In this document: positions 2,286-22,856 of the stretch, piece by piece
How the letters are laid out: the number at the start of each line of letters is the position of its first letter
Position numbering within the stretch: the first letter of the stretch is position 1
From: a candidate division WOR-1 bacterium RIFOXYB2_FULL_45_9
GTDB taxonomy: Bacteria; Margulisbacteria; WOR-1; O2-12-FULL-45-9; XYB2-FULL-48-7
Length of the DNA: 64,000 bases
Reading direction: 5' to 3'
Assembly (NCBI GenBank): GCA_001771575.1
Contig: MEUD01000001.1
Coordinates: 1,117,277 to 1,181,276 of the forward strand
Translations under genes and position numbers: made by a program
The notes under the pieces: model-generated
What the model saw: only the letters and a program-made list of their open reading frames with translations
The model's database searches: none
Told to the model about the DNA's origin: nothing

Positions 2286-3250
2286 TACGCGCAGAAATTT
2301 AAAGTATAATCGTTGAATTGAGGGGTAGCGGCTCCGGTTGTACTAAAAATAAATTTGGCATGCAGAAAGCGATTCGGTTGATTAACTATCGTATTGCCCG
2401 GTCCCAGCGGCAGGTACCCAGACCAATTTGACGCCCCATCTCCAGATTCAGTCTCAACTATTAATGAGGTTCCGCTTGGAGTATCCGCGTTCCAGTTCAA
2501 AGTCGCTCCATCATTAAAATTATTAAACGGGGTCCCCGTATCAATAGTCACGATATATGAGCCGGAAGTAACACTTAAGCCTAAGATGATCGAGCCAGGA
2601 ATGGTCGTAATATCCAAACTGTTTTGAGGATCGATCGTCCCCTGCCAGTTTTCAGTTTCCGTAAAATTTTGGGTGGAGCAAACCGGCCCATCGGCTACGT
2701 CCGCCTCTGCCTCAGCTTCAAGAACATCCTGAATCACATCTTCGGTAATATCCGGGATAATATCCTGCGCGATATCTTCTATCACATCAGGAATAATATC
2801 CGGCTTAACGTCTTCAGCAACATCCTGGACCACATCTTCGGTAATGTCCGGGATAACATCAAGTATCGTGTCCAAAGGAGTATCGTGTTCCACATCAGGG
2901 ATCACATCCGGGATTACATCAGGGGTGTCCTGGTTCACGTCAATAATAGTATCCAGCGCGACATCGGCTAAGGCGTCGGCTTCTTTCCCCCCGTCTAAGA
3001 TATCTTCAACCGTATCGTTTAAAACATCTTTCCCGTCGACATCGGTCAAAGAGGCATCGTTTACTGCTTGTACCTTCTCCGGAGCCAGCATCTCCGCCGC
3101 GAAAGAACAGCCGATCGTCAGATGGGCGGCGGTAATCATCGCCGCCAAACCGGTCGACTGGCCAAGCCTGGTGGCCCGTACGTTTGGTATTGGTGTTGGT
3201 AGCGCTGTTTGCGGACGAACCCTGGATATCATTCCCATTCTATTGATCAT
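2282..3250 (-). CDS. Asp/Val-repeat protein, last gene of a kinase operon
   Basis: A protein of 322 residues from the chosen ATG at 3250. That start has GGAGG five bases upstream and overlaps the kinase stop (ATGATCAATAG), so the two genes are translationally coupled. A longer frame to 3298 lacks a site. A weak hydrophobic stretch near residues 35-52 (GLAAMITAAHLTIGCSFAA) could be an anchor or signal. Residues of about 65-185 are a degenerate repeat of acidic heptad-like units (D-V/I-I-P-D-V/I, E-D-V/I-x-Q-D-V), giving a very acidic, possibly calcium-binding stalk. The final about 130 residues form a predicted beta-sandwich with two Cys (VCSTQNF and NFCAY). I do not recognise the family. Confidence 0.65.
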   Translation of the reverse strand: MINRMGMISRVRPQTALPTPIPNVRATRLGQSTGLAAMITAAHLTIGCSFAAEMLAPEKVQAVNDASLTDVDGKDVLNDTVEDILDGGKEADALADVALDTIIDVNQDTPDVIPDVIPDVEHDTPLDTILDVIPDITEDVVQDVAEDVKPDIIPDVIEDIAQDIIPDITEDVIQDVLEAEAEADVADGPVCSTQNFTETENWQGTIDPQNSLDITTIPGSIILGLSVTSGSYIVTIDTGTPFNNFNDGATLNWNADTPSGTSLIVETESGDGASNWSGYLPLGPGNTIVNQPNRFLHAKFIFSTTGAATPQFNDYTLNFCAY

Positions 3251-4556
3251 TTTGTCCTCCAATATTGACCATCGAAAGAGAAAAGTTGGTTTGGCCAAAT
3301 TGCAATAAGTGGTTCCGCCGGATCTGCTTCAGCTCGTCAACAAAGACCCGCGCCGAAGGGTGTCGGTTTTCGGCTCGTTTCTGGAATGCCTTGGCGAAAA
3401 AGTCCCCCAGCGGTTCGCCTAAAAAGCTAAAATCCGGGAGTGGGATATTTTCGTCCGTAACCCGCCTGCCATAAGCGGAAGCGTCGTCGGTCGGTTTGAT
3501 TGGATAGGGGGCTCGTCCAGTGATCAATTCAAAGATAATGACCGACAGGGCGTAATAATCGGCCCGCCAGTCAGCTTCTTCCCCCTTCCAGACTTCAGGA
3601 GACATATAAAGAGGGGTGCCGAAGACCCCCTGTTTATACGCTTGAGTAAGTTTGAGCGATTTTTTCCCCAGCTCCCGGCGGATATATTTAGCCAATCCCC
3701 AGTCGCCGATCTTAAAGCGGTCCCTGTCTTCCCCTTCGGGGCGATAGATAAAGATGTTGTCCGGCTTCAGGTCGCGGTGGACGATCCCTTCGCGATGGAC
3801 CGCCAGCAAAGTTTCGCCAATGGCGATCCCCAGGTCAAGGACGTAATCCACGGGGAAATAATTGATCCCTTCCTGTTGTTGTTTTTTTTCAACAATATTC
3901 TCCAACGTCCCCGAGGGCATATATTCCATGGTGATGTACGGGATCGAACCATTGTAGCCCTGCAAAGGCCGACCGGTCAGCATTTCAAAAGTTTTCGCGC
4001 TCAAGCGGCCCAGGTCGTACAGGTGGACCACTCCTTCGATCACCAGGCGGGCCTGATTCCTGGCTTCCGCGCTTTCAAACCGGGCGATCGTCGCCGGATC
4101 ATTGAGCGATCCTTCCAAAGGGATCTTTAAAACAACTTCCAGGTCAAGTCTCCGGTCATAAACCAACAATGTTGACGCCATCCCTCCCTGTCCCAGCGGC
4201 CGCTTGACCTCGTAGCGCTCCAAAAAGGTCTGGTGAAGATAATCCTCTTTCATCGATTGAAGAGCGGCAAGCTCTCCTTGTTTCCTTTCAATTTCCATGG
4301 CTCGGCCAGAGATCGTTAACCGATCTGCGACCAAAACTTTATGCGCGCCATAGCCTAAAACCGCGCTCGCCAGGGCCGCGACTAAATGCGACCACGGCTT
4401 ATAGAGAGGGTCGTTAAATGAGGCTTTGACACTCCCGTATCCCCCACCGGCCGCGCAAGCGGCGATCAACCCCGCTTTGGCGACGCCGGAAGCAATGGGG
4501 TGTCGATTCGCGAAGCGATCCACACCGGCGATTCTTTTACTAATCGAGCTAGCCAT
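3240..4556 (-). CDS. Membrane-associated Ser/Thr protein kinase (Hanks type)
   Basis: A protein of 438 residues. Two hydrophobic segments lie near residues 24-42 and 56-76, then a charged helix, then a kinase domain from about residue 114. Motifs: glycine loop GQGGMAS (122-128), ATP lysine in VVLKIP (K144), catalytic loop HRDLKPDN (260-267), DWG (285-287) in place of DFG but with the metal aspartate kept, GTPLYMSPE in the activation segment, and FELITGRAPYP. All catalytic residues are present, so it should be active. Unusually the membrane part is N-terminal and the kinase C-terminal, the reverse of PknB-type sensors. Its ATG overlaps the upstream stop (TAATG). Confidence 0.92.
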   Translation of the reverse strand: MASSISKRIAGVDRFANRHPIASGVAKAGLIAACAAGGGYGSVKASFNDPLYKPWSHLVAALASAVLGYGAHKVLVADRLTISGRAMEIERKQGELAALQSMKEDYLHQTFLERYEVKRPLGQGGMASTLLVYDRRLDLEVVLKIPLEGSLNDPATIARFESAEARNQARLVIEGVVHLYDLGRLSAKTFEMLTGRPLQGYNGSIPYITMEYMPSGTLENIVEKKQQQEGINYFPVDYVLDLGIAIGETLLAVHREGIVHRDLKPDNIFIYRPEGEDRDRFKIGDWGLAKYIRRELGKKSLKLTQAYKQGVFGTPLYMSPEVWKGEEADWRADYYALSVIIFELITGRAPYPIKPTDDASAYGRRVTDENIPLPDFSFLGEPLGDFFAKAFQKRAENRHPSARVFVDELKQIRRNHLLQFGQTNFSLSMVNIGGQNDQ

Positions 4557-16983: not shown

Positions 16984-17207
16984 TGGGCGGGGTTTACGGG
17001 CTCGGCTCGCCGGGTGGCGTTCCGCACGCCAGCGACGAGGCGATCAAACAAGCGAAATATTCGGACATCAAAAGCCAGGCCGGACGGATCGCCTATCACT
17101 GCGCCGCCGGAGCAAGGGCAGGAAAACCGACGATCGAAGAAGGAATTAAGCCGGCCAAAGGGGCCTTAAAATGGATCGCCAAATTACTTGAGGAGGAAAA
17201 TCAATGA
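16983..17207 (+). CDS. Hypothetical protein, 74 residues
   Basis: A small protein with a Gly-rich start ([20 protein letters not shown]) and a helical rest ([20 protein letters not shown]). It is coupled on both sides: its ATG overlaps the upstream stop and its own TGA overlaps the ilvD ATG. GGAGG of the upstream gene's end serves as its site. No known domain is seen. Confidence 0.6.
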
Positions 17208-18850
17208 GAAGCGACGCCCTAAAAAAACGAGCCCCCATCCGCTCCCTGATCCACGCCACCGGAGTTTCGGCCAAAGAGATGAAAAAACCATTTATCGGAC
17301 TGGCCTCCAGCTTTACCGACCTGGTGCCGGGACACGTTGACATGCGCTCACTGGAAAGGGCGATCGAAAAAGGGATCCATGCCGGCGGAGGGGTCGCCTT
17401 CACCTTTGGCCTCCCCGCTATTTGCGACGGGATCGCCATGGGACACAAAGGGATGCACTACTCGCTCCCCTCTCGCGAACTCATTGCCGATACTATTGAA
17501 TCGGTCGCCGAAGCTCACCAGCTGGACGGACTGGTCCTCTTGACCGCGTGCGACAAGATCACTCCCGGCATGTTGATGGCGGCGGCCAGGCTTGATATCC
17601 CGACCATATTAGTCACCGCCGGACCAATGCTCGCCGGCTGTTATAAAATGACCCGGCTTGATCTGGTCCACGACACTTTTGAGGCTGAAGCTGCTTACAA
17701 ACAGGGAAAGATCGGCAAAGCGGACCTTGATAATTTAACTCTGAACGCTTGTCCGGGCGCCGGCTCCTGCTCGGGCATGTTTACCGCCAATACCATGGCC
17801 TGTGCCGGAGAAGCGCTGGGAATGTCGCTCCCGTATTGCGGCACGTCGCTCGCGGTTTCCTCCAAGAAAAAAATGATCGCCTACGAAAGCGGCCAAAAAA
17901 TTGTCGAGCTGGTCGAAAAACATGTTACTCCCCGCAAGATCATGAATATGAGGGCTTTTACCAACGCCATCCGGATCGACATGGCACTCGGCGGGTCGAC
18001 CAACGCCGTTCTCCACCTGACCGCCATCGCCCGGGAAGCGGGGATCAAACTGCCGGTCGAACTTTTTGACGAGATCAGCAAAGCAACCCCGCATATCACC
18101 AGTCTCCGCCCGGGGGGGGACCATTTTATGGAAGATTTTGAGCACGCCGGCGGGGTCCCGGCCGCGATGCGCGTCCTGCAAAAAATGCTCCTGGACAACC
18201 CGACCGTTTCCGGCCTGACCATTAAACAGATCGCCGCCGCCGGCGAAGTTTTTGACAAAGAGATCATCCGCTCAACCGCCAACCCGTATCACAAGGAGGG
18301 GAGTTTGGCGGTCCTAAAAGGAAACATCGCTCCGGAAGGCGGGGTCGTCAAACAGACCGCGGTTTCTGCCAAGATGATGAAGTTTGCCGGCAGGGCAAAG
18401 GTGTTCGATTCCGAAGATGCCGCCCAAAAAGCGATCCTCGGCGGAAAGGTCAAGTCGGGAGATGTCGTTGTCATTCGCTATGAGGGGCCAAAGGGGGGAC
18501 CGGGGATGAGGGAAATGCTCTACCCCACATCGGCGATCGCCGGCATGGGGTTGTCCGACTCTGTCGCCCTGATCACCGACGGCCGGTTTTCCGGCGGGTC
18601 GCGCGGCCCCTGCATCGGCCACGTCTCTCCGGAAGCGGCGGCCGGCGGGCCAATCGCCATTCTTAAAGACGGAGATATAATTGAGATCGACATTCCTAAC
18701 CGGAAATTAAACGTGAAGTTGAGCGACACGGAGATCAATCTCCGCTTGCGGCAATGGAAAGAACCGAAACCGAAATTCGAGTCCGGCTGGCTGGCTAGAT
18801 ACCAGAAGATGGTCACTTCCGCCAGTACGGGAGCGGTCTTGAAGGCTTAA
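17204..18850 (+). CDS. ilvD: Dihydroxy-acid dehydratase
   Basis: A protein of 548 residues, full length. Motifs [40 protein letters not shown] (a cluster Cys), [18 protein letters not shown] (a cluster Cys) and [17 protein letters not shown] are present. It is an Fe-S enzyme of valine/isoleucine synthesis making 2-keto acids. The start ATG overlaps the previous stop (ATGA) with GAGGAG upstream. The last 17 codons are echoed by a diverged copy at 19490-19543, implying a past rearrangement just downstream. Confidence 0.97.
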
Positions 18851-19371
18851 TCGACAATAAATCCGATTTTGCCTTTGGGCTTTTCAGGCGGGATCATAAG
18901 TTGGCGAATTGCATTAAAGACAAGTTGAATCTCAGCATCGTGCTTCTTAAGATGCTTTCCAAATTTCTGTTCCAATAAAGTCAACTTAAGTTCCAAATCC
19001 TTGTGAGTCAACAGTATTTGTTTAAGCCGCGTAAATGTTCGCATGATTTCAATATTAACAAGAACCGCTCTACGGCTGCGCAAAACAGATGAAAGCATTG
19101 CGATCCCTTGTTCTGTAAAAACTCGAGGCAACTTTCGTGTCCCACCCCAACTTGATGTTCCAAATTGGAACTTCAAGTTTGCAAATTCTTCTCTGGACAA
19201 CTGGAACATAAAATCGGCGGGAAAACGAAACAAATTTCTAGCGACAGCTTTATTCAGAGCTTTGGTCGCTACCTCATAAAGTCCGGCCAGGTCTTTGTCC
19301 AACATCACTTTCTGCCCGCGAATCAGATAAATCTTGTTCTCAATCCTCTCGACCGGGATTAACTCCTTCAC
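18847..19371 (-). CDS. ORF6N-domain protein
   Basis: A protein of 174 residues. The N-terminal half is the ORF6N domain ([55 protein letters not shown]), which occurs in phages and as wandering single genes in many bacteria and is thought to bind DNA. The C-terminal half is a helical coil ([20 protein letters not shown]). It starts at GTG 19371 with GAGGTGG six bases upstream. It overlaps ilvD tail to tail by four bases and lies between the two copies of the ilvD end, so it is accessory DNA. Confidence 0.9.
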
Positions 19372-19489
19372 TCAAACCACCTCTGCGAAAATAACAGCAA
19401 TTATATTGCCAGATATTTTTTTTGGATGTTATGTTATAAGGTGGATATATATTCGGGCATAGTAGCTTATTGGCGGCGAAATTACGTCG
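19372..19489. other. Short gap upstream of the ORF6N gene
   Basis: On the minus strand it contains TATAAT about 38 bases before the GTG start, a likely -10 box for the ORF6N gene. Nothing else is recognised. Confidence 0.35.
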
Positions 19490-19543
19490 CGTTATCAGCG
19501 ACTGGTCACCTCGGCCAGTACCGGCGCGGTGTTGAAGGCTTAA
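19490..19543 (+). pseudogene. Remnant of a second ilvD 3' end
   Basis: These 18 codons read [17 protein letters not shown]-stop and match the end of intact ilvD ([17 protein letters not shown]-stop, 18797-18850) at 15 of 17 residues. By my count 42 of 54 bases are identical, and most differences are synonymous. The frame has a stop shortly upstream, so no gene is left. The pattern means it diverged while still coding, and points to an ilvD homologue replaced or recombined at this spot. Confidence 0.75.
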
Positions 19544-19562: not shown

Positions 19563-19590
19563 AAAGCTATGGCCTTACGGTCATAGCTTT
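19563..19590. terminator. Hairpin downstream of the ilvD remnant
   Basis: AAAGCTATGGCC, loop TTAC, GGTCATAGCTTT: a 12-pair stem with one G-T wobble. On the minus strand five T follow, so it could stop transcription coming from the 20142 gene. On the plus strand there is no T run. Confidence 0.5.
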
Positions 19591-19636
19591 GACACAAAAA
19601 ACCAATTTAAGCTTCGCTTGTCCACTGTTAATCGTT

Positions 19637-19669
19637 CCTGAAGGGGGCCGGAACGATGCCCCCTTCAGG
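19637..19669. terminator. Perfect 12-bp hairpin after the secreted orphan
   Basis: CCTGAAGGGGGC, nine-base loop, GCCCCCTTCAGG. It sits eight bases beyond the stop of the minus-strand gene. The plus-strand side is followed by T-rich sequence. The T run is weak either way, so the terminator role is likely but not certain. Confidence 0.6.
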
Positions 19670-19677
19670 ATGATTTT

Positions 19678-20142
19678 CTATTTTCCTTCCTGTGCCGGCT
19701 TAAACTCGTCCGCGTAGCTTTGTTCAAGACCTCCACTTTCAAAATCATCTAATGCCAAACCAATCGCGGTGCTAGACCAAAAATTGGGCATGGTTTTGGA
19801 TCCTTGAATGCCGGTCCCAGTAATCACTGTACTAGAAGACGCTGCTTCATGAGCAAATATTCCATAATTTTTTCCAGAACTAAGGTTAAATTTTGCTCTA
19901 CCATCCGAAGCCCATTTGGTTATGCCAGTTCCTGAAATAGCATTTTCTCCAGAATCAATTTCTATAACACTTACTTGTGCAGCAATCCTTTTATTCTTAT
20001 AGAAACAGGATACGTCCAAGTATCTTATCGTTGTCACAGAAATATTACTTGCTGCTGGGCTCACAGTAGGCAAAGCAAAACTGGAAGAACAGCTAAACAA
20101 AACCATCAAACATGTAATTAGCCCGCTTATCTTTTTTATCAT
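19678..20142 (-). CDS. Secreted orphan protein
   Basis: A protein of 154 residues. It has a signal peptide (LITCLMVLFSCSSSFALP), possibly a lipoprotein signal because of the early Cys. The mature part is Ser/Thr/Gly-rich with short strands (VTTIRYLDVSCFYKNKRIA, ISGTGITKWASDGRAKFNL, SSTVITGTGIQGSK) and an acidic end. There is no known domain. AAGGAG precedes the ATG. It lies in the accessory insertion between ilvD and ilvB and is flanked by strong hairpins. Confidence 0.6.
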   Translation of the reverse strand: MIKKISGLITCLMVLFSCSSSFALPTVSPAASNISVTTIRYLDVSCFYKNKRIAAQVSVIEIDSGENAISGTGITKWASDGRAKFNLSSGKNYGIFAHEAASSSTVITGTGIQGSKTMPNFWSSTAIGLALDDFESGGLEQSYADEFKPAQEGK

Positions 20143-20433: not shown

Positions 20434-20461
20434 TTGAAATGGTTCGGTTTTATGGTAAAAT
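20434..20461 (+). promoter_or_regulatory. Leaderless-type promoter of the HEPN-MNT-ilvB operon
   Basis: TTGAAA (20434-20439), 16 bases, TGG directly before TAAAAT (20456-20461), then six bases to the ATG at 20468. No ribosome site is present. Because the following codons copy the ilvB start, this may be the former ilvB promoter. Confidence 0.6.
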
Positions 20462-20467
20462 TAGCGT

Positions 20468-20494
20468 ATGGAAATCTCCGGCGCGCAAGCCTTG
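20468..20494 (+). repeat. Diverged copy of the ilvB 5' end
   Basis: Codons 1-9 (MEISGAQAL) match codons 1-9 of ilvB at 21180-21206 at 24 of 27 bases, all three differences being synonymous third positions. Similarity ends abruptly at codon 10. Confidence 0.85.
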
Positions 20495-20863
20495 AATAAG
20501 TGGTTCAAACAAGCCGATCATGACCTGCAAATGGCTAAAAGTATCATTGAAGATGGCGGCTATGATACTTGCGCTTTCCTTTGCCAGCAAGCGGTTGAAA
20601 AATACCTCAAGGCGCTTTATATCTTTAAAGAACGGAAAAATCCGCCAAAGACTCATCACTTGGACGAATTGGCCAAAGGACTGGCCTGTCCTGATTCTAT
20701 TTTGGATATTGCGCGTGAGCTTTCATCTGATTACATGATATCTCGGTATCCCGATGCGGCGACTTTAGCTCCTTATGAAGAATATACGGTATCTGACGCT
20801 CAAAGCAAGCTCGCCAAAGCCGAAAAAGCAATCGAATGGATTAAATCTCAAATAAAACCATGA
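20468..20863 (+). CDS. HEPN-domain protein (partner of MNT) with an ilvB-derived start
   Basis: A protein of 131 residues. The HEPN fold of the COG2250 type is seen in WFKQADHDLQMAKSIIEDGG, CAFLCQQAVEKYLKALYIF, THHLDELAKGL and the SRYPDA block. Such proteins pair with a minimal nucleotidyltransferase, often as toxin (HEPN) and antitoxin. The first nine residues are the acetolactate synthase start, so the gene is a chimera using the ilvB promoter and initiation region. Its stop overlaps the MNT start (ATGA). Whether this HEPN is an active RNase is open: no clear RX4-6H motif is seen. Confidence 0.88.
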   Translation: MEISGAQALNKWFKQADHDLQMAKSIIEDGGYDTCAFLCQQAVEKYLKALYIFKERKNPPKTHHLDELAKGLACPDSILDIARELSSDYMISRYPDAATLAPYEEYTVSDAQSKLAKAEKAIEWIKSQIKP

Positions 20864-21180
20864 AAAAAGACAAATATATTTCCAAATTCGTAAAACAGCA
20901 TCTGGAAACGATAAGAAGCACTTATAATCCAAAAGGGTTATGGTTTTTTGGCTCAAGAATTACCGGGAAACCGAGCGAAGAAAGTGATATAGATATGGTT
21001 TTGGTATCGGACAAATTCAAGGGAACAAAGTTTATTTACAGAATGAGTGATTTTCTTAAAAAATTTGATTTTCCCAAACATATTGACGCGCTCTGTTACA
21101 CCTTGGAAGAATTTGAGCAAAAAAAGAATGAAATTGGCATAATCAACGAAGCAATCGAAAAAGGAGAAAGAGTTATCTAA
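20860..21180 (+). CDS. MNT-type minimal nucleotidyltransferase
   Basis: A protein of 106 residues. The signature GSRITGKPSEESDIDMVLV provides the GS loop and the paired aspartates (DID) that bind metal, and a further acid lies in HIDALCYT. In characterised HEPN-MNT pairs the MNT protein adenylylates the HEPN toxin to silence it. The stop overlaps the ilvB ATG (TAATG), so ilvB is now translated behind this module. Confidence 0.9.
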   Translation: MKKDKYISKFVKQHLETIRSTYNPKGLWFFGSRITGKPSEESDIDMVLVSDKFKGTKFIYRMSDFLKKFDFPKHIDALCYTLEEFEQKKNEIGIINEAIEKGERVI

Positions 21181-22856
21181 TGGAAATCTCCGGCGCTCAA
21201 GCTTTATTGGAGTCGCTAAAACACGAAGGTGTTGACGTGATCTTCGGTTACCCTGGTGGGGTCGTCCTGCCACTTTACGACGCCATGTACTCATATAAAG
21301 ACGTTAAACATATTCTCGTCCGCCATGAACAAGGGGCGGCTCACGCGGCCGACGGCTACGCCCGGGCGACCGGGAAAGTTGGTGTCTGTCTCGCTACCTC
21401 CGGCCCAGGCGCCACCAACCTGATCACCGGAATTGCCACCGCCTATATGGACTCGATCCCCATGGTCGCGATTACCGGACAGGTCGCGACCCCCTTATTG
21501 GGGCGCGATTCCTTCCAGGAAGCCGACCTGACCGGCATTACCATGCCGATCACCAAACATAACTACCTGGTTAAAAAGACCGAGGATCTCCCGCGGATAA
21601 TCAAAGAAGCCTTTTATATCGCCAGGACCGGCCGTCCCGGCCCGGTCTTGATCGACATCCCAAAAGACGTTTTCGTAAATAAAATTCAATACAAATATCC
21701 GGATAAGGTTGATTTGGAAAGCTACAAGCCAACATACGAAGGGCACCCCAAGCAAATTACCATGGCAATAAAAGCGATCCAGACGGGGCAAAAAGCGGTC
21801 ATCTACGCCGGGGGCGGCGTCATCGCTTCTGACGCGGCCAAAGAGCTTATTGAGCTAGCGGAAAAATGCCACATCCCGGTTACGACCACCATGATGGGTA
21901 TCGGCGGATTTCCTGGAACGCACGAACTCTGTCTGGGGATGCTTGGAATGCATGGCACCGCTTACGCCAATTACGCGGTGACCGAATGCGACCTGCTGAT
22001 CGCTATCGGCGCCCGCTTTGACGACCGGGTCACCGGGCATATCGCCCGTTTTGCTCCCAAAGCCAAGATCATTCACATCGACATCGATCCGGCCGAGATC
22101 GGCAAGAACGTCCGGGTTGATGTACCGATCGTTGGTGACGTAAAAATGGTCCTGCGGGCGATCCTGGCCAAGCTTCCGGCCAAAGAAAAAAACCAGGCCT
22201 GGCTCGACCAGATCAGCGAGTGGAAGAATAAATTTCCTCTCTCCTACAGGCGAGATGGGGGACTCAAGCCGCAATTTATTATTGAAGAGCTTTACGCCCT
22301 GACCAAAGACCGGGAGACGATCATCGTCACCGAGGTCGGTCAGCACCAAATGTGGGCCGGTATGTTCTATAAATATGATAAACCCAGGAATTGGATCTCG
22401 TCCGGCGGTCTGGGGACAATGGGCTATGGCCTGCCAGCCGCGAACGGCGCGCAGTTTGGCCGCCCTAACGCGCTGGTAATCGACATTGCCGGCGACGGGT
22501 CGATCCAGATGAACATTCAGGAGTTGACCACCGCGGTCAACAACCGCCTGCCGATCAAAATATTTGTCCTGGACAATTGCTTTCTCGGAATGGTCCGTCA
22601 GTGGCAGGAGCTGATCTACGACCGGCACTATTCCCATACCCAGTTGTGCAACAATCCCGACCTGGTAAAGATCGCCGAGGCCTACGGGGCGGTCGGCCTG
22701 CGAGTCACCAAAGAGGAAGAAGTCCGGCCGGCCATGGAAAAAGCTTTTGCCATCAACGATCGACCGGTCCTGGTCGACTTTATTACCGCCAAAGAGGAGA
22801 ATGTTTTCCCCTTTGTGCCGCCCGGACAGGCGATCAACGAAATGATCATCGATTAG
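21180..22856 (+). CDS. ilvB: Acetolactate synthase, large subunit
   Basis: A protein of 558 residues, full length. ThDP enzyme motifs: catalytic Glu in RHEQGAAHAADGYARA, ATSGPGATNLITGIA, GARFDDRVTG for the FAD domain, and the diphosphate site GDGSIQMNIQEL...DN near residue 440. It joins two pyruvates (or pyruvate and 2-ketobutyrate) in branched-chain amino acid synthesis. It has no obvious ribosome site of its own apart from the coupled TAATG with the MNT gene. ilvN and ilvC follow. Confidence 0.97.
   Translation: MEISGAQALLESLKHEGVDVIFGYPGGVVLPLYDAMYSYKDVKHILVRHEQGAAHAADGYARATGKVGVCLATSGPGATNLITGIATAYMDSIPMVAITGQVATPLLGRDSFQEADLTGITMPITKHNYLVKKTEDLPRIIKEAFYIARTGRPGPVLIDIPKDVFVNKIQYKYPDKVDLESYKPTYEGHPKQITMAIKAIQTGQKAVIYAGGGVIASDAAKELIELAEKCHIPVTTTMMGIGGFPGTHELCLGMLGMHGTAYANYAVTECDLLIAIGARFDDRVTGHIARFAPKAKIIHIDIDPAEIGKNVRVDVPIVGDVKMVLRAILAKLPAKEKNQAWLDQISEWKNKFPLSYRRDGGLKPQFIIEELYALTKDRETIIVTEVGQHQMWAGMFYKYDKPRNWISSGGLGTMGYGLPAANGAQFGRPNALVIDIAGDGSIQMNIQELTTAVNNRLPIKIFVLDNCFLGMVRQWQELIYDRHYSHTQLCNNPDLVKIAEAYGAVGLRVTKEEEVRPAMEKAFAINDRPVLVDFITAKEENVFPFVPPGQAINEMIID

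Follow-up and report, generated by a model that had tools for sequence, protein, structure and literature searches.

Restriction–modification (RM) genes are described as inserting into chromosomes with long, variable target duplications on the order of 100 bp (PMC3874152, PMC1643837; Nobusato et al. 2000 and Furuta et al. 2010, reviewed in PMC3874152), and RM gene insertion of this type is the closest known phenomenon to the one described here. The nearest mechanism is homology-facilitated illegitimate recombination, described for competent bacteria and for conjugation in E. coli (PMC3240628). It is a long-standing question how toxin-antitoxin and solitary defence genes enter chromosomes when no transposon is involved, and a literature search for the same pattern of duplicated gene ends with toxin-antitoxin genes found nothing specific. 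Here, the window denotes the whole stretch of 64,000 nucleotides that was analysed; its genome is a single 1.67 Mb contig, and the named records with the closest ilvD are labelled Candidatus Saganbacteria, WOR-1 or Margulisiibacteriota. In the window, a second, diverged 3' end of ilvD lies beyond an ORF6N-domain gene, and this second tail is probably the scar of an ORF6N insertion at the ilvD 3' end through recombination between related lineages. The pattern as a whole points to a recurrent entry route by which small toxin-antitoxin and defence genes are added while the host gene stays unbroken.

Two duplicated gene ends between ilvD and ilvB

The features of the region are as follows.

17204..18850 (+): complete ilvD; ILVD_EDD_N and ILVD_EDD_C Pfam matches, 94% amino-acid identity to ilvD of the same-genus genome G001
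18794-18850 (+): last 19 codons of ilvD, the gene-side copy of the repeat
18847..19371 (−): cargo 1, ORF6N-domain gene antisense to ilvD; PF10543, E 4.9e-33; PADLOC candidate PDC-S05, E 1e-58
19372..19486 (no strand): AT-rich spacer from the ORF6N start to the stub, free of ilvD homology (sequence, repeat search)
19487..19543 (+): stub, the second, diverged ilvD 3' end, 19 codons including the stop (repeats, tblastn, blastn, codon comparison)
19678..20142 (−): inserted ORF with a signal-peptide-like N-terminus; no Pfam or NCBIfam match, missing from the ilvD–ilvB gap of G001
20434..20467 (+): apparently native ilvB promoter/leader, TATGGTAAAATTAGCGT, now before the HEPN gene; identical to the stretch directly 5' of G001 ilvB
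20468..20493 (+): stub, the apparently native ilvB 5' end (MEISGAQA), fused in frame to HEPN (repeat family D1)
20468..20863 (+): cargo 2a, HEPN gene whose start and initial codons are those of ilvB; PF05168, E 8.6e-28
20860..21180 (+): cargo 2b, MNT nucleotidyltransferase, type VII antitoxin-like; PF01909 (NTP_transf_2), E 2.4e-8, and a weak MntA_antitoxin match below the cut-off
21180..22856 (+): complete ilvB with its own second 5'-end copy; TPP_enzyme N, M and C matches, 93% amino-acid identity to G001

In G001, the only other same-genus genome in the comparison set, ilvD and ilvB are separated by ~35 bp with one promoter, compared with 2.3 kb here. This check of synteny in the closest relative, which the first-pass annotation had called for, indicates that everything between the two genes in the window is inserted.

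The ilvD tail match runs in codon register from about 19487/19490 to 19543. Specifically, the repeat finder pairs 18810-18850 with 19503-19543 (88% identical, 41 nt), and codon by codon the stub differs from the ilvD end at 12 of 54 bases. The first-pass annotation had described 19490-19543 as repeating the last 18 ilvD codons at 15 of 17 residues plus the stop and at 42 of 54 bases, which is exact, and had placed it about 640 bases past ilvD; the stub begins 639 bp after the ilvD stop. A chance match is ruled out by E-values of 1.4e-6 (tblastn of the ilvD C-terminus against the window), 2.7e-6 (self-blastn of the window) and 5.3e-4 (whole genome). No ilvD body is present upstream of the stub, where homology ends just upstream of the RYQ codons, and the stub thus represents the gene end only. 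Between the two tails, as that annotation had also said, lies the ORF6N gene, whose stop overlaps the ilvD stop with the TTAA common to both (read from the sequence) and whose protein matches the PADLOC phage-defence candidate PDC-S05. Just 3' of the stub, two strong hairpins (window 19563-19590 and 19636-19670) are terminator-like and lack a clear T run.

Additionally, the same gap holds a second, independent gene-end duplication, at 20434-21239. It runs from the apparently native promoter of ilvB and the opening 8-9 codons of that gene, joined in frame to HEPN, through MNT to the complete ilvB start. HEPN-MNT is a recognised toxin-antitoxin type. The ilvB stub, which matches the G001 codons and retains what appears to be the native promoter, differs from the ilvB start by two changes in the 8 codons compared, both synonymous, and the MNT stop and the ilvB start share 1 nt (TAATG). 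A peptide-end search for further end duplications in the window singles out only ilvD and ilvB. The ilvB case, like the many genes affected in relatives, had been missed by the first-pass annotation; such recurrence suggests that cargo insertion is the event and the second gene end its by-product. Elsewhere in the window, degenerate 12-nt repeats occupy 2716-2920, just before and within the start of the ORF at 2844-3308.

Recurrence in relatives and association with defence-like cargo

Around 20 cases in the phylum place a small toxin-antitoxin or defence gene between a true gene end and a diverged second copy of it. The ORFs were called by a simple start-to-stop caller, most of the genomes are metagenome-assembled (MAGs), and the window genome was sampled as 20 stretches of 20 kb, about a quarter of it. 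The targets in relatives include ilvD (twice more), dxr, recR, pyrE, tkt, leuS, queC, idh, scpB, ruvX, coaBC, lnt/metF, a dedA-like gene and nnrE; Pfam matches back the names of ilvD, ilvB, lnt and nnrE only, and the names dxr, dedA-like, leuS, metF, pyrE, recR, tkt, queC, idh, scpB, ruvX and coaBC are presumed from recognition of the protein ends. The cargo comprises PIN, Fic, HEPN-MNT, ORF6N and Bro-N genes plus genes without a family, while a methyltransferase-like gene (L067) is a target of end duplication, not cargo. ORF6N genes occur at many places in genomes of the clade, and the closest homologue of the window protein (83%, in G006) does not lie beside ilvD, so the cargo is not bound to one target.

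Several loci carry more than one unit. In G006 there are two ilvD 3'-end copies, one of them degenerate. A different antisense gene follows each copy, and both have ~120 bp in common upstream of the tail. G004 has the dxr 5' end three times around MNT and RHH-PIN, an insertion partly common to G008 with an identical junction; and G021 has a coaBC gene end three times. Another ilvD 3'-end copy accompanies other antisense cargo in G023, these G006 and G023 stubs being independent cases, and a Nitrospinota genome has an ilvD 3'-end copy around a pair of small genes of no known function. At lnt/metF, a 470-aa gene of no known family sits between the convergent, overlapping lnt and metF (L160, 8510-10196), and the 35-nt overlap is duplicated so that both genes keep their ends. 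This stretch is present twice in G000 and once in G001, an empty site whose copy is identical to one of the two in G000.

To count the association, cargo loci were centred on homologues of the window ORF6N and HEPN proteins and on PIN and NTP_transf_2 members, and the comparison set was 212 randomly chosen genes (330-900 bp) in stretches from the same clade. Direct repeats, 21-104 nt long around defence-like cargo, span the central gene in 27/90 cargo loci and 9/212 random genes (Fisher p = 3e-9), the random genes being drawn from fewer genomes than the cargo loci; inverted repeats do so in 2/90 and 1/212. The strict count of direct repeats is 19/82 cargo loci (p = 4e-6) and leaves out a CRISPR array (L255) and the paralogues at L184 and L219. 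Within the cargo loci themselves, direct outnumber inverted repeats 27 to 2 (p = 2e-6), a contrast independent of how genomes were sampled for random genes. Self-comparison of 0.62 Mb of loci from the phylum yields 25 direct and 1 inverted local repeats, with 15 rows touching a gene end. For other phyla, 1.02 Mb of sequence surrounding ilvD gives 22 direct and 9 inverted repeats, of which 2 touch a gene end; these loci are a biased sample, as most were fetched around ilvD.

The junctions at 5' ends are tight. In 6/7 loci checked (ilvB, dxr in G004 and G008, pyrE, recR and tkt; the exception is nnrE), the final cargo gene ends -4 to 0 nt from the host start, overlapping or abutting it. The upstream stubs are often short leader ORFs (19 codons at dxr in G004 and G008, 32 at recR), and others are fused to the cargo, as in ilvB-HEPN. 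We read the abutting junctions as selection, in that only insertions with the host gene still translated survive. The stubs end abruptly at a different codon at each locus, as non-homologous joints would.

Other repeats were seen in the same genomes. In G006, three cargo genes at L034 3863-5612 have a common promoter-like 5' flank (GAAATTTCACTCTATTTTTGAAAT, + strand); two of the three adjoin ilvD tail copies, and their products lack family matches. At L034 8248-8996, a 353-nt direct repeat (97% identical) lies within one ORF between ilvN and ilvC. In G000, a 69-nt fragment of a 427-aa ORF is repeated 2.5 kb away at 88% (L159, 2267-2335 and 4783-4851); this fragment is internal to the gene and is not a gene-end case. 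One genome encodes giant ORFs of about 5447, 4408 and 3389 aa with internal repeats (L147 313-16656, L153 1096-14322 and L152 4313-14482).

Divergence of the copies and the route of insertion

Over 24 copy pairs, third codon positions hold 88/130 differences (p = 1e-15 against 1/3, and p = 5e-7 against 0.46, our conservative estimate for a drifting stub beside a constrained gene), with p-values that are somewhat optimistic as some copy pairs share ancestry. Of 112 changed codons in these pairs, 76 are synonymous. The 3' stubs, which carry no start codon and have no apparent coding function, hold 53/80 differences at third positions when taken alone (p = 2e-4 against 0.46), and in the ilvD tail of G006 the figure is 14/17, with one amino-acid change. 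This excess indicates that the copies diverged while coding, as the first-pass annotation had supposed for ilvD, and were later joined by recombination between lineages; it also disfavours plain target-site duplication followed by drift. The simplest reading of these codon patterns would be that each end was originally the allele of a separate lineage and that the two were joined later. We leave room for true duplication at some loci: the nnrE copies differ at 4 codons, all nonsynonymous, which looks like drift, and the scpB and tkt copies, among the recent-looking pairs of 95-97% identity, have no amino-acid-coding differences.

The alternative that survives best, if a rather unlikely one overall, is true insertion in which the cargo duplicates a 25-100 bp target, with later drift and gene replacement separating the copies. 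Such duplication is described for RM genes (PMC3874152, PMC1643837); it is consistent with direct repeats of 21-104 nt around defence-like cargo, with empty sites holding one copy, and with the many pairs at 95-97% identity, the recent ones at scpB and tkt being equally compatible with it. However, the third-position bias extends even to the 3' stubs, where non-coding drift should not give it, and to the nearly silent changes of the G006 tail.

Another reading, in which a foreign ilvD arriving with ORF6N displaced the resident gene and left its tail behind, was proposed by the first-pass annotation as allelic or homologous replacement. Recombination between lineages stands from that proposal, and replacement of the whole ilvD is unsupported. 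The two tails do show coding-type divergence, and another genus of the family also has the RL residues of the stub, but the body of ilvD is 94% identical to its same-genus counterpart, sliding codon-window identity against G001 (covering ilvD, ilvB and ilvC) reveals neither breakpoint nor clear step in ilvD, and the stub is a gene end only. Replacement alone would also leave the cargo association and the 5' cases unexplained, and we regard it as improbable. A similarity ranking of the tails is bounded by their few sites, too few to say which tail is native.

Less probable still is a site-specific cassette or island with an integrase at gene ends, or an integron-like cassette array. The arrays of G006 (~120 bp in common), G004 dxr and G021 coaBC (three ends each) look cassette-like, but the inserts read contain no integrase, integron-integrase scores stay below the cut-off across the genomes of the class, and the duplicated sequence is different at each locus, 5' ends included, with no shared recombination core across loci seen so far. 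An assembly artefact, with strain variants joined head to tail in metagenome assemblies, is hardly credible: most genomes are MAGs and the G004 dxr locus has Ns near the repeat, but the window genome is one contig, the G004 insertion recurs in G008 with the same junction, and the repeats go with defence-like cargo and abutting stop/start junctions.

We return to insertion by recombination between related lineages, and propose the following route. Linear DNA from a relative, carrying a gene end and cargo, would pair with the resident housekeeping gene, and a crossover would occur on one side, where the homology is extensive. On the cargo's other flank, the joint could be illegitimate or be formed via the short homology of the gene end. 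The resident gene would stay intact, with a functional end from one lineage; the other lineage's end would be left as a stub past the cargo. Where a 5' end is involved, the native promoter and initial codons would remain as a leader, and an insertion would persist only if the cargo stop abuts or overlaps the true start and thereby leaves the host gene translated. Addictive or protective cargo may then be retained, and a unit of end, cargo and gene, having homology on both sides, could spread by ordinary recombination, which the arrays in G006, G004 and G021 fit. No recombinase or transposase ORF was recognised inside the inserts at the loci read. Genes of the ComEC and DprA families are present, and likewise in most control genomes, so they are no proof of competence. 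Several points are contrary to this route: ilvD lacks a visible breakpoint against G001, so that any donor DNA within ilvD itself would be conjectural, and the copies at ilvD are too short to tell native from donor. All junctions are also placed much alike, which could reflect a mechanism more specific than one-sided homology.

As a possible but rather speculative extension, the units may form a recombinase-free cassette economy in this phylum. Short copies of housekeeping-gene ends would act as portable homology arms; toxin-antitoxin and defence genes would thereby travel between species as gene end, cargo and gene end, stack into arrays, and borrow the host promoter and translation start at 5' ends. 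These scars occur often, codon divergence allows them to be dated, and their targets are named genes; the choice between target duplication and recombination between lineages is therefore testable by counting. Additionally, new defence candidates can be recognised by a simple marker, the position of an uncharacterised gene between duplicate copies of a housekeeping-gene end, such as the cargo without a family in G005, in G006 and beside lnt.

Comparison with known systems

Distinct from insertion sequences and transposons, the inserts contain no transposase ORF between the repeats and no inverted repeats at their ends, and only the 2/90 cargo loci counted above are spanned by inverted repeats. 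Integrative elements (ICE/IME) at gene 3' ends are alike in leaving the host gene whole with a displaced 3' end at the far side of the insert; unlike them, the inserts here hold one to three genes, enter many target genes, use 5' ends too, and show no ORF recognised as an integrase between the repeats at the loci read. Integron cassettes likewise form arrays of small, often toxin-antitoxin cargo between repeats, as at G006 ilvD, G004 dxr and G021 coaBC, whereas the repeats here are pieces of the neighbouring housekeeping gene, and 0/31 genomes of the class exceed the TIGR02249 cut-off for the integron integrase.

RM gene insertion with long target duplication shares with these loci a small addictive or defence cargo without mobility genes, long variable direct repeats of host sequence, and an empty site in a relative: the repeat is single in the uninserted relative at lnt/metF, and the ilvD–ilvB gap is empty in G001. 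Unlike that system, the cargo here consists mostly of toxin-antitoxin and defence candidates rather than an RM system, the repeats lie at gene ends, and the copies are mostly diverged coding alleles rather than identical duplicates; overall, the third-position counts do not fit duplicates of one resident sequence, with which individual recent pairs are compatible. Homology-facilitated illegitimate recombination needs no recombinase and could place non-homologous cargo beside a homologous anchor, with part of a gene end left over, and it differs in that one-sided homology at these loci is our inference.
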